Positions 5,475-9,362 of a DNA stretch of 64,000 bases are shown here, in pieces. A model generated the notes under the pieces. It saw only the letters and a program-made list of their open reading frames with translations. It did not search any database and was not told where the DNA came from. The position numbers and the translations under genes are program-made. Numbering within the stretch: position 1 is the first letter of the stretch; every line of letters starts with the position of its first letter. The stretch is from Saprospiraceae bacterium (lineage in GTDB: Bacteria; Bacteroidota; Bacteroidia; Chitinophagales; Saprospiraceae): positions 124,001-188,000 of the forward strand of contig JAEUUO010000019.1 of the NCBI GenBank assembly GCA_016787575.1, read 5' to 3'.

Positions 5475-6197
5475 TGTTGCTTGCCATTTTCTTAGCTGGT
5501 TTAATACAACCCTAAGGTCTTTTGGCAAGGGGGATTCGATTTTATAAGATTGGCCGTATAAGTTGAATTCCAGTGAACTAGCATGCAGAGCAGTACGACT
5601 CAATAAGGGCCTTTCGTGCTCAAAATCAGCATTTTTTGCATTGTATTTTATGTCTTTAATAAATAATTCCTTCCTTAAGCCATAAAGAGGATCGCATATA
5701 ATTGGACAAGACAGGGCGGCTAGATGAACTCTGATTTGGTGCGTTCTACCCGTTTTAGGGGCCAGTTCAACCAAGCAGAACCTCTTAAAGGATTCCACTA
5801 TTTTATAATAAGTGATGGATGGTTTTCCTTTTTTGTGAATGGTCATTTTGCCAGTTTCATAAGCAGAATGTGCAATGGGCATGTCGATTATACCGGATTC
5901 GGGTACTGGACAATTTTCTGTCAAGGCTACATACCGTTTCTCAATTGTATGATTTTCAAAAAGTAATGATAATAATCGATGGGTTTCTGAGTTTTTAGCA
6001 AATAGAACCAAGCCACTGGTCTCTTTATCGATTCGATGAACAACAAAAAGTTCATCATATTTTGCCTGTAATAATTTAATTAGATTGGGTTTTTCAAGAT
6101 CATATCTGTCAGGAATACTAAGCATGCCTGCGGCTTTGTCTACAACCAAGAAATGCTCATTCTCATAAATTGTATTAATTTCAGATGTACTCATCAA
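5463..6197 (-). CDS. RluA family RNA pseudouridine synthase
   Basis: The 244-residue protein has the RluA catalytic motif HRIDKETSGLVLFAK, with the catalytic Asp at residue 57, the family N-terminal motif (NEHFLVVDKAAGMLSIPD) and the later GRTHQIRVHLA motif. It converts uridines to pseudouridine in rRNA or tRNA; the exact target site cannot be read from sequence. There is no S4 domain, so it resembles the short RluA/RluC-like enzymes of Bacteroidota. Its start overlaps the stop of the ribF-glycosyltransferase gene by 4 bases, which implies translational coupling. Confidence 0.93.
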   Translation of the reverse strand: MMSTSEINTIYENEHFLVVDKAAGMLSIPDRYDLEKPNLIKLLQAKYDELFVVHRIDKETSGLVLFAKNSETHRLLSLLFENHTIEKRYVALTENCPVPESGIIDMPIAHSAYETGKMTIHKKGKPSITYYKIVESFKRFCLVELAPKTGRTHQIRVHLAALSCPIICDPLYGLRKELFIKDIKYNAKNADFEHERPLLSRTALHASSLEFNLYGQSYKIESPLPKDLRVVLNQLRKWQATLKL

Positions 6198-8203
6198 TCC
6201 TTAAAATAATTTTTAGGGATTTGCGAAAAAACTTTATTTCCTGAAAAATAAAATTGAATAAAAATGCTTGCTTTTAAAATTCCTTTCTGATTGAATTTAC
6301 TGTAGGCTAAATCGTTTATTTGTTTATCTGAATATTTTTTCTTTTGAATTAAATACAATGTATTAATAATGGCTACAATGTATGCTTGTATTATTTTATA
6401 AAATATATTTAATTTACCTTTAAATAGATAGCTAATTGCAATTAATAAATCCAGGATGAATCGAATTGGCAATATGTAAAGCAATTGAAGGTAACCGGTG
6501 TTTTTAAACAATGTAAATAAATTATTTCTAAAATTGAGATATGTTTTTCTTGGATTGTCGTAATCTAAAGTTCCACCACCTAGATGAAATATCACTGAAT
6601 CTGGCACATAAATTATTTTACCTCCCAAGCGTTTAATACGCCAGCAAAGATCAATTTCTTCTTGATGTGCAAAATAGTCGCCATCAAATCCTCCCAAGGA
6701 TTTAAAAGCCACTGCTTTAATTAGCATAGCTGCTCCGCTGGCCCAAAAAATTTCAGTTATATCCTGATATTGACCTTTGTCTGTTTCTAAATAATCAATC
6801 ATTCGACCTTTGCAAAATGGATATCCAAGCAGGTCAATATAACCCCCTGCAGCACCTGCATATTCAAATTTATCAGGTTCATTCAAAGATAAAATTTTTG
6901 GTTGGGCTATCAGAACAGTAGGGTCCTTTTGGATTTCAGATATCAAAGGACTTATCCAATCATTTTTAATTAAAACATCCGAATTTAGTAGAATAAAATA
7001 ATCAGCATCTATTTGAGCCAAGCCTTTATTATAGCCTGAAGCAAAACCATAGTTTTTCCTGAGTCTGATAATTTTTATTTCCGGAAAATGATGCTCTAGA
7101 AATACACAACTTGAATCAGTCGAATTATTATCAATAACATAAATGGGAAGATTGTGTTGGTTGTGTTTAGTAACTGATGGCAAATATTCTTTTAAGAATT
7201 TGTAACCGTTAAAATTTAATATGACAATTGCATAAATTGGTTTTCTGAATGGAAGGGTATGCAATTCGTTTCTGATTAAGGCTTTTTTACAGGCTTTTTC
7301 GTCAGAATGAATTTGGTTTTTTAAACTTTCAAGGCTATCAAATTTAACATCATTTCTAACAAAATCAATAATTTTAACAAGTACAGTCGTGCCATATATT
7401 TCCTTGTTAAAATCAAATAGGTGAACTTCAACAGATTGAGTCGATGATTCTTTTAAAGTTTCGCTCTTGCCAATATATAGCATGCCATTGAAGAGTAATC
7501 CATCGACTAGTATTTTAACGGCATAAATCCCATCTGGAGGTATTAATTTAGATTGGTCTGTAAACTCTAAGTTTGCAGTAGGATAACCAATTTTTCGCCC
7601 TAATTTGTCTCCAGGGATTACTTTGCCTTCGAGTTGATATGGATAACCCAAATATAAATTTGCTTGATGAATTTTTTTTTCTTGAATTAAACTTCTGATT
7701 TTTGTTGAGCTTAATTTTGATTCCTCAACATATTGTGCCTTGATTTCGTCAAATTCAAAATAGTTTTTTGAGGCGTAATAGCGCAATAATTCACAATCAC
7801 CTTTGCCATCTTTGCCAAATCGATGATCATATCCTGCTATAATTTTTTTTGGCCTAAAATATTTTACAAGAAAGTTTTCGATATAATCTTCTGGTACCAT
7901 CTGTGCAAAAGAGTATTCAAAAGCGATTAAAATCAAATAATCCAGAGTGGTACTGTTTAAAATTTGGATTTTCTCGTCAAGTGTGTTTAGCAAGGCAACC
8001 GGTTGATCTCCAGGATCTAAAACAGTGCGTGGATGTGGATAAAAGGAAATTAATATGCTTTCACCTCCTATTGATGCAGCTGATTGACAGAGTTGTGAAA
8101 TTATTTTTTTATGCGCCAGATGAAGCCCATCAAAGGTCCCAACTGTTAATACAGGATTCTTAAAATCTGGTAAAGGGTCTTGCCCATAATAGATAATGCG
8201 CAT
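6194..8203 (-). CDS. ribF: Fusion: bifunctional riboflavin kinase/FAD synthetase + GT2 glycosyltransferase
   Basis: One 669-codon frame joins two enzymes. Residues 1-311 form a complete RibF: FAD synthetase part with TVGTFDGLHLAHKK and SFYPHPRTVL, then the riboflavin kinase part with GDKLGRKIGYPTANL and PPDGIYAV. Residues 320-669 form a family 2 glycosyltransferase (AIVILNFNGYKFL, VIDNNSTD, KNYGFASGYNKG, LLNSD at 406-409, then a GGFDGDYFAHQEEIDLCWR segment) with hydrophobic C-terminal helices. RibF makes FMN and FAD from riboflavin; the GT2 half probably transfers a sugar at the membrane. There is no stop and no ATG in the linker (about 300-325). The usual RibF is about 310 residues, so this is a real fusion or a single-base joining of two adjacent genes. 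Confidence 0.9.
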   Translation of the reverse strand: MRIIYYGQDPLPDFKNPVLTVGTFDGLHLAHKKIISQLCQSAASIGGESILISFYPHPRTVLDPGDQPVALLNTLDEKIQILNSTTLDYLILIAFEYSFAQMVPEDYIENFLVKYFRPKKIIAGYDHRFGKDGKGDCELLRYYASKNYFEFDEIKAQYVEESKLSSTKIRSLIQEKKIHQANLYLGYPYQLEGKVIPGDKLGRKIGYPTANLEFTDQSKLIPPDGIYAVKILVDGLLFNGMLYIGKSETLKESSTQSVEVHLFDFNKEIYGTTVLVKIIDFVRNDVKFDSLESLKNQIHSDEKACKKALIRNELHTLPFRKPIYAIVILNFNGYKFLKEYLPSVTKHNQHNLPIYVIDNNSTDSSCVFLEHHFPEIKIIRLRKNYGFASGYNKGLAQIDADYFILLNSDVLIKNDWISPLISEIQKDPTVLIAQPKILSLNEPDKFEYAGAAGGYIDLLGYPFCKGRMIDYLETDKGQYQDITEIFWASGAAMLIKAVAFKSLGGFDGDYFAHQEEIDLCWRIKRLGGKIIYVPDSVIFHLGGGTLDYDNPRKTYLNFRNNLFTLFKNTGYLQLLYILPIRFILDLLIAISYLFKGKLNIFYKIIQAYIVAIINTLYLIQKKKYSDKQINDLAYSKFNQKGILKASIFIQFYFSGNKVFSQIPKNYFKD

Positions 8204-8217
8204 AAAAAACAGATTTG

Positions 8218-8225
8218 CAAATTTA
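8218..8225 (-). promoter_or_regulatory. -7-like element for ribF fusion gene
   Basis: TAAATTTG on the minus strand matches TAnnTTTG, 14 bases before the ribF ATG. No convincing -33 TTG is seen at the normal spacing. Confidence 0.35.
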
Positions 8226-8260
8226 TTAATTTTAATAGACCATTCCGGAATAAATCGAAT

Positions 8261-8268
8261 TATTTTTG
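8261..8268 (+). promoter_or_regulatory. -7-like element for mrp
   Basis: TATTTTTG matches TAnnTTTG and ends 8 bases before ATG 8277. It supports 8277 rather than the upstream in-frame ATG at 8196 as the start of the Mrp protein. No -33 TTG is evident. Confidence 0.35.
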
Positions 8269-8276
8269 TCCAAAAT

Positions 8277-9362
8277 ATGAATCAGTTAATTCAAGAAATT
8301 ATTGAAAAATTGCAATTTGTTATCGAACCAGACTCTGGTAGAAACATAGTACAACTACGAATGATCAGAGACATTCGATTAGAAAATGAGCAGTTTCATT
8401 TTAAAATTTACCTTCCATCCGCTACGTATAAGCATAAGGACAAGCTTTATGCTGAAATTCATGAAATTTTAACAAATTCATTTCCTGGTTTGCAACTTCA
8501 CGCTCATTTTGTAAATCAATTGCCAATGACGGATGCCCCAAATACCAATTTTCCCAATATTTCGAATTTTATAGCTGTTGGATCTGGGAAAGGAGGTGTA
8601 GGCAAATCAAGCATTTCAGCATTTTTGGCCATTTCTCTTAGAGCTGCAGGTTATAAGGTGGGTTTATTGGATGCAGATTTGTACGGTCCTTCCATTCCAA
8701 CAATGTTTGGGATTCGAGATCTTAAGCCAAAAGTTGTGGAATCTGAGGGTAAACATAAAATGTTGCCCATAGATGTACAAGGATTGTCCATTATTTCTCT
8801 TGGGAATATCATTGATCCTGAGCAAGCAGTAGTTTTGAGGGGGCCAAGATTGGCTGCTATTATTAAGCAATTTTTCTTTGATACCCTATGGCCCGAGCTG
8901 GACTATTTAATTATTGATTTGCCTCCGGGTACCGGAGACGTTCAACTAACTTTAGTTCAAACCATCCCACTAACTGGGGTCGTTATGGTTACAACTCCAC
9001 AAGAAATAGCATACATAGATGCAGTAAAGGCTGCCAATATGTTTACAATGGATCAAATAAAAGTTCCAATTTTAGGAGTCATTGAAAATATGTCCTGGTT
9101 TGAGCCGGACGACAATCCAGGGAAAAAGTATTTCATATTTGGGCAAGGTGCAGGTCAAAGGCTGGCAACCAAAACCGAATCGAGCCTGTTAGGTCAAATT
9201 CCAATTCGGGAAGGTATGCGCCAATCATTTGATAGCGGTAATGCTTTTCAATTGGATTCTTTTTATTCAGAGTTATTTAATCCAATTATTAAAAAATTAA
9301 AAGATAAAATTGATTTTAGAAATTTAATTTATGCTCCAAGTCAAGTGGTACAAGCTAATTAA
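8277..9362 (+). CDS. mrp: Mrp/NBP35 family ATP-binding protein (Fe-S cluster carrier)
   Basis: I start this gene at ATG 8277 (361 residues); a longer frame from 8196 would overlap the divergent ribF start and adds 27 residues foreign to the family. Residues 1-85 are a DUF59/MIP18 domain, followed by the deviant Walker A GSGKGGVGKSS (103-112), LLDADLYGPSIPTMFG and DYLIIDLPPGTGD. Mrp/ApbC proteins bind and transfer Fe-S clusters to target enzymes in an ATP-dependent way. The C-terminal CxxC found in E. coli ApbC is not present: the segment after ENMSWF reads EPDDNPGKKYFIFG, as I recall for other Bacteroidota members. pyrF follows 6 bases downstream. Confidence 0.93.
   Translation: MNQLIQEIIEKLQFVIEPDSGRNIVQLRMIRDIRLENEQFHFKIYLPSATYKHKDKLYAEIHEILTNSFPGLQLHAHFVNQLPMTDAPNTNFPNISNFIAVGSGKGGVGKSSISAFLAISLRAAGYKVGLLDADLYGPSIPTMFGIRDLKPKVVESEGKHKMLPIDVQGLSIISLGNIIDPEQAVVLRGPRLAAIIKQFFFDTLWPELDYLIIDLPPGTGDVQLTLVQTIPLTGVVMVTTPQEIAYIDAVKAANMFTMDQIKVPILGVIENMSWFEPDDNPGKKYFIFGQGAGQRLATKTESSLLGQIPIREGMRQSFDSGNAFQLDSFYSELFNPIIKKLKDKIDFRNLIYAPSQVVQAN

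Follow-up and report, generated by a model that had tools for sequence, protein, structure and literature searches.

Prokaryotic bifunctional FAD synthetases of the RibF type, such as C. ammoniagenes FADS and T. maritima TM379, combine an FMN adenylyltransferase module with a riboflavin kinase module, and they normally end at about 310-338 residues. The combination of a vitamin-pathway enzyme with another domain has a precedent among the riboflavin-pathway fusions compiled in PMC4921024; in the text of that article, as distinct from its supplementary tables, RibFa and RibFk are among the examples, and no RibF-glycosyltransferase fusion is given. Likewise, the open papers searched contain, in their main text, no report of such a fusion, and ribF is absent from the main text of the GeneTack survey of frameshifts. 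Another set of precedents is relevant to the way in which two products may arise from one gene. Because runs of nine or more A provoke transcriptional slippage, the genes of many bacteria avoid them (PMC1088944). In Thermus thermophilus dnaX, which carries an A9 run late in an ORF with the long product in frame, about half of what is made is the short product, formed by slippage (PMC1088944), and dnaX homologues with A10 are found in other bacteria (PMC3711429). Conversely, the long product of Shigella mxiE needs slippage (PMC1088944; reviewed in PMC5009743), and in both mxiE and spa13 the downstream frame is reached only in this way, as shown by experiment.

Here we describe a gene in which RibF runs on into a family 2 glycosyltransferase (GT2). 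It is located in a 64,000-nucleotide stretch of a Saprospiraceae bacterium genome (assembly GCA_016787575.1, contig JAEUUO010000019.1, positions 124,001 to 188,000), referred to below as the window. According to the ORF listing, the minus strand from 8203 to 6194 is occupied by a single intact ORF of 669 codons, with ATG at 8203 and a TGA stop at 6196-6194, and with full-length homologues in other genomes, while the plus strand over the same interval has many stops. A sequence-only reading had placed the ORF correctly at 6194-8203, although it missed the minus strand; its main claim, that a complete RibF and a complete GT2 share one uninterrupted reading frame, is borne out, as the domains and motifs of both halves are intact and inspection of the sequence at the junction (7230-7310) reveals neither a stop nor a frame break. 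The protein is composed of RibF (residues 1-308), a linker (309-321) and GT2 (322-669), with Pfam matches to FAD_syn at 15-167 (5.5e-40), Flavokinase at 185-308 (4.5e-39) and Glycos_transf_2 at 326-433 (4.4e-20). The source genome consists of 41 contigs totaling 3.57 Mb, with an estimated completeness of 100%; the fusion gene is its sole riboflavin kinase match, and a search of this genome for a second, separate ribF found none, while GT2 matches number 17. A viral fold search returned nothing matching the whole fusion protein.

The RibF half has both Pfam domains in the expected order, PF06574 at 137 bits (cut-off 27) and PF01687 at 134 bits (cut-off 19.6), and scores 246 bits against the TIGR00083 ribF model, for which the cut-off is 184. 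Its FAD synthetase module (residues 15-167; 7703..8161, minus strand) retains GTFDGLHLAH, PHP and SSTKIR, and its riboflavin kinase module (residues 185-308; 7280..7651, minus strand) retains GYPTAN, DGIYA and EVHLFDF, the latter including E259, which by sequence would be the catalytic-type Glu of this module. In 21 aligned fusions the GxFDGxHxxH, PHP, SSTxIR, PTAN and DGIYA motifs and E259 are conserved, being invariant or nearly so. In the predicted model, residues 1-322 can be aligned to the C. ammoniagenes FADS structure (2x0k) with a Z-score of 32 over 310 residues and an rmsd of 2.5 Å, and both modules and motifs of the characterized enzymes are likewise present in the fusion. By every sequence test applied, this half is RibF, and its enzymatic activity is predicted.

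The GT2 half (residues 322-669; 6197..7240, minus strand) exceeds the PF00535 cut-off of 23.3 with 72.7 bits and has a GT-A fold. The motifs DNNSTD, NSD (407-409) and HQEEIDLCWR (513-522) are intact, and in the 21 aligned fusions DNxSTD, NSD and HQEEIDLCWR are conserved; moreover, NSD 407-409 and EEID 515-518 are conserved in 43 sequences which include stand-alone enzymes from Flavobacteriia. By analogy, NSD may serve as the metal/nucleotide DxD-type motif, and EEID may supply the catalytic acidic residue. None of the named GT2 subfamilies could be assigned, as all glycosyltransferase models listed in NCBIfam (rhamnosyltransferase, MftF, PgaC and others) scored far under their cut-offs. The GT-A fold of residues 319-650 is shared with polypeptide GalNAc-Ts and with mycobacterial and nocardial GlfT2 (Z 22-24), and with GlfT2 the alignment also covers the C-terminal helices, up to residue 630; identity to these enzymes is only 12-19%. 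Hydrophobic helices occupy the C-terminus at about 571-632, and the most hydrophobic segment, 571-594, is consistent with membrane association. An orthologue of the GT2 is conserved across the phylum in the phylum sample.

The genomic surroundings differ between the window's family and other taxa. Downstream, a pseudouridine synthase gene (PF00849; 5463..6194, minus strand) begins with ATG at 6194-6192, overlapping the stop of the fusion, which makes co-transcription of the two genes probable and suggests translational coupling. The overlap reads TGATG (6192-6196), with one base common to the stop and the start. Of 80 family loci, 48 have a pseudouridine synthase next to the fused or tandem genes. 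Upstream and divergent are a Mrp-type NTPase and pyrF, and in the window the divergent intergenic region (8204..8276) separates the fusion from a Mrp/NUBPL-type P-loop NTPase gene with a probable start at 8277. Over 8196-8277 the mechanical ORF call lets the NTPase begin within the 5′-terminal part of the fusion gene; the ATG at 8277 is the likelier start. In outgroups of the order, ribF follows truB and uppP in 8 of 10 cases (gene names assigned by sequence reading), and the stand-alone GT2 is found elsewhere; of 9 such genes, 3 lie beside a lipid A-type acyltransferase and 4 beside WbqC. In the Flavobacteriia (L054-L111), a stand-alone GT2 orthologue lies in a conserved block with the small protein HSDR_N_2, an OmpA-family gene, and holA-like and Sua5-like genes, the last two named by sequence reading. 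Neighbors of the GT2 in the outgroups and the Flavobacteriia are no more than suggestive of work on the cell envelope.

The sequence-only reading had offered a lost stop codon or a sequencing indel as an alternative to a real fusion, to be recognized by separate ORFs in close relatives and a correctable indel at the junction. Neither was found within the genus: the locus was found in seven same-genus genomes, and in every one the protein matches end to end at 48-61% identity with no stop, while an eighth genome, 66% complete, yielded no match to the locus. In a family-wide set, composed mostly of Saprospiraceae with one Lewinellaceae, 274 of 298 genomes had a match, which in about 220 (~80%) covered nearly the whole query as a single hit, and in 53 was re-examined as split or partial; the spanning matches include a few tandems with an in-frame stop (L012, L029, L211, L212). 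Full-length homologues in the seven congeners and most of the family indicate that the join did not arise by chance, and the in-frame fusion across genus and family refutes a lost stop or indel for the window's gene. Merging of two neighboring genes during sequencing or assembly might be imagined, given that ribF and GT2 adjoin each other in relatives, many of which are metagenome assemblies; it is nevertheless practically negligible as an explanation, since about 220 family genomes share the in-frame join while their linkers are independent, among them the complete, isolate-sized chromosome of G155 (a single contig of 8.37 Mb), and the window's seam has no long homopolymer. We conclude that the RibF-GT2 fusion in the window is genuine; it is also unusual, as initially claimed.

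Separate ribF and GT2 ORFs occur only in more distant family members and represent natural variation, most having their own stops and starts. Among 212 distinct family genes, in-frame fusions account for 165 and adjoining separate ORFs for 47, as in G087, where the genes are in tandem; the start overlaps the stop in 15 of the 47 unfused pairs. Pairing is nearly universal in the family, the exceptions seen being G086 and G106, in which the genes are unlinked, and G129, in which they are 1.36 kb apart. Outside the family, no fusion was found in the order-wide or phylum-wide samples, where the places listed match either the GT2 or the RibF half only. Four loci (L012, L201, L211 and L212) have ribF and GT2 in the same frame, parted by one or two stop codons, for which recent stop gain or loss, or readthrough, are possible on sequence grounds.

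Trees built without the junction require at least 11 changes between the fused and separate states in a set of 109 rows including 10 outgroups, and 13 in a set of 211 rows, counting fusion and fission alike; the state differs even among sister groups (G093 and G185 versus G247 and G290). Since the two genes are unlinked in the outgroups and paired across the family, they must have been brought together in the family ancestor, and since unfused members are mostly tandem, pairing came first, while joining and splitting were recurrent. By the sequences compared, the fusion is an old, family-wide trait of Saprospiraceae, and the pattern is most naturally read as retention of coupled synthesis, the covalent join being readily gained and lost.

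The window's linker (7241..7279, minus strand) extends the C-terminal helix of RibF, and contains no ATG or GTG and only one in-frame TTG. That TTG is the sole candidate for an independent GT2 start within the junction, which makes such a start unlikely. Between fixed landmarks, the linker in the family measures 18-42 aa, with 28 in the window's protein, and its sequence is not conserved. The AlphaFold2 model of the window's protein (pLDDT 90, pTM 0.84) predicts a continuous helix at 291-315, and its confident domain orientation implies that the halves could interact; the model of a second, more distant family member has a pTM of 0.55 and a low-confidence linker. From these models, a defined domain packing is possible within the window's genus, and a flexible tether is likelier across the family.

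These features bear on the idea that the fusion itself is selected, with RibF docking on the membrane-bound glycosyltransferase as a local source of FMN or FAD, or with mutual regulation of the two halves. The predicted helix bridging the domains in the window's protein, the hydrophobic C-terminal helices and the retention of the fusion in every same-genus genome with the locus found all speak for it. We nonetheless consider it quite improbable, as about one-fifth of the family is unfused with repeated transitions, the linker varies in sequence and length, the second modeled member is predicted to be flexible, and GT2 chemistry has no flavin requirement. The related suggestion of the sequence-only reading, that RibF is thereby brought to the membrane, stays plausible in view of the hydrophobic C-terminal helices and the GlfT2-like fold, although the varied junctions argue against it being a selected function.

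The junction attracted our attention for yet another reason. The A-rich seam of the window's gene (7283..7299, minus strand) has only an A5 (7299-7295) and an A6 (7288-7283), and none of the seams in its genus reaches nine A, the longest runs being A7, but of the 205 relatives with a short junction, 27 (about 1 in 8) carry 9-11 consecutive A in the homologous region. Slippage was rejected for the gene of the window itself, its A-runs being too short; with just an A6 and an A5 at the seam, the fusion is constitutive there. A classic -1 frameshift heptamer at the A6 (TGT AAA AAA GCC) is out of phase.

In the relatives, runs of at least nine A number 28 in 17.6 kb of junction sequence versus 3 in the 392-kb remainder of the same genes (208-fold enrichment, Fisher 2e-35), and runs of at least ten number 18 versus 0. 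Runs of G or C are not enriched in the junctions, and T contributes a single run. By length, the runs become fewer from A3 (339) to A8 (8), but A9 (10) and A10 (17) are again more frequent and a single A11 is the last, so that a second peak is centered at exactly 10 and no run is longer than 11. Most of the runs are some 20 nt upstream of the GT2 domain; each of the three codon phases is represented, and the phase differs between species.

Such runs could be neutral, if Lys-rich flexible linkers simply tolerate the growth of A homopolymers, with neither slippage nor switching under selection. The linkers are indeed variable and Lys-rich, the A≥9 state is gained and lost on the tree (it changes 17 times among 211 genes, versus 24.9 in shuffles, and clusters in one part), and the base and codon composition of junctions is by itself sufficient to raise the expectation, to 2.4 runs in base-shuffled junctions (maximum 8 of 300 shuffles) and to 5.2 in codon-order shuffles of fused genes (maximum 12). 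We regard neutrality as unlikely, however, because 28 and 24 runs, respectively, were observed, and because of the second peak at length 10. Furthermore, the runs occur even at the seams of genes with 55-59% GC, and for genes with GC>0.48 there are 8 runs in 4.1 kb of junction, while the DNA flanking the loci, used here as the background, has 1 in 86 kb. A Lys-rich peptide does not need pure AAA codons, yet Lys triplets are written as AAAAAAAAA in 12 of 21 cases in the junction versus 2 of 36 elsewhere (Fisher 2.5e-5), and A9 is often avoided in bacterial genes (PMC1088944).

In 23 of the 27 A-run loci the fusion is in frame, and the gain or loss of one A leads to an early stop and RibF alone. 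This layout is that of T. thermophilus dnaX; unlike in dnaX, the run joins two unrelated enzymes, is present in some relatives only and is absent from the window, and slippage in these relatives is a prediction from the sequence. In the remaining four loci (G093, G185, G252 and G153, corresponding to L142, L138, L144 and L157) the GT2 is one frame off ribF, with 10-11 A shortly upstream of the ribF stop, at the overlap, and there is no proper GT2 start, only a late TTG in G185, so that slippage would be needed to make the GT2. These four resemble mxiE and spa13, except that the latter are experimentally established, while the former are read from draft assemblies, in which homopolymer miscalls are possible; a miscall in the in-frame A10 genes could not easily occur without breaking the frame. 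Thus, both the dnaX-like and the mxiE-like layouts are found in one orthologous family of Saprospiraceae ribF-GT2 genes.

The main rival to slippage at the A-run is phase variation, whereby replication slippage would turn the GT2 on or off according to frame, with RibF always made. Homopolymer tracts, poly-A included, are known sites of phase variation, for which genes for surface structures are typical targets (general knowledge; PMC3711429), 4 of the 27 tract-bearing genes are out of frame, and placement of the tract after RibF leaves the essential enzyme intact. We view a phase-variable switch as rather unlikely, since the GT2, unlike the usual variable surface glycosyltransferases, is conserved phylum-wide, 23 of 27 genes are in frame with lengths held at 9-11, and no within-species variation was seen, with a single genome per species.

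Taken as a whole, the explanation we favor, and hold to be probable, is that a single RibF-GT2 protein ensures coupled production of its two halves, with dual products made by slippage in those relatives that have A9-11 seams. Selection would act mainly on the joint supply of two housekeeping enzymes by a single message, with each half largely autonomous: the RibF half would form FMN and FAD, and the GT2 half would transfer a sugar onto an envelope lipid-linked acceptor at the membrane, its location there presumably holding RibF near the inner membrane. In the subset of relatives with an A9-11 seam, slippage of RNA polymerase (or of the ribosome) may yield RibF alone as well as RibF-GT2, and in the four out-of-frame relatives an additional A, or else a -1 shift of the ribosome, would link RibF to GT2, slippage being the apparent route to the latter. 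The more specific proposal, that A9-11 slippage in this subset is selected to provide both free RibF and RibF-GT2, and that the in-frame, slippage-dependent and coupled-tandem states represent ongoing fusion and fission with slippage as an intermediate, could in our judgment go either way. Only a minority of relatives have runs of at least nine A, a state that changes 17 times on the tree, so that slippage does not characterize the family in general.

Proteins of this kind, encoded in sequenced genomes, must already be present in databases, and species with an out-of-frame A-run are liable to be labelled by annotation pipelines as having broken or overlapping genes. Across an entire lineage, the fusion couples an essential enzyme of cofactor synthesis to a sugar transferase of the envelope type. 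The two have no obvious chemistry in common, which calls for caution in inferring a common pathway from gene fusion. With all types of junction represented in one family (overlapping, out-of-frame poly-A, in-frame poly-A, plain fusion and separate genes), the Saprospiraceae offer a natural experiment on gene fusion and splitting, and on transcriptional slippage as a possible stepping stone between these states.
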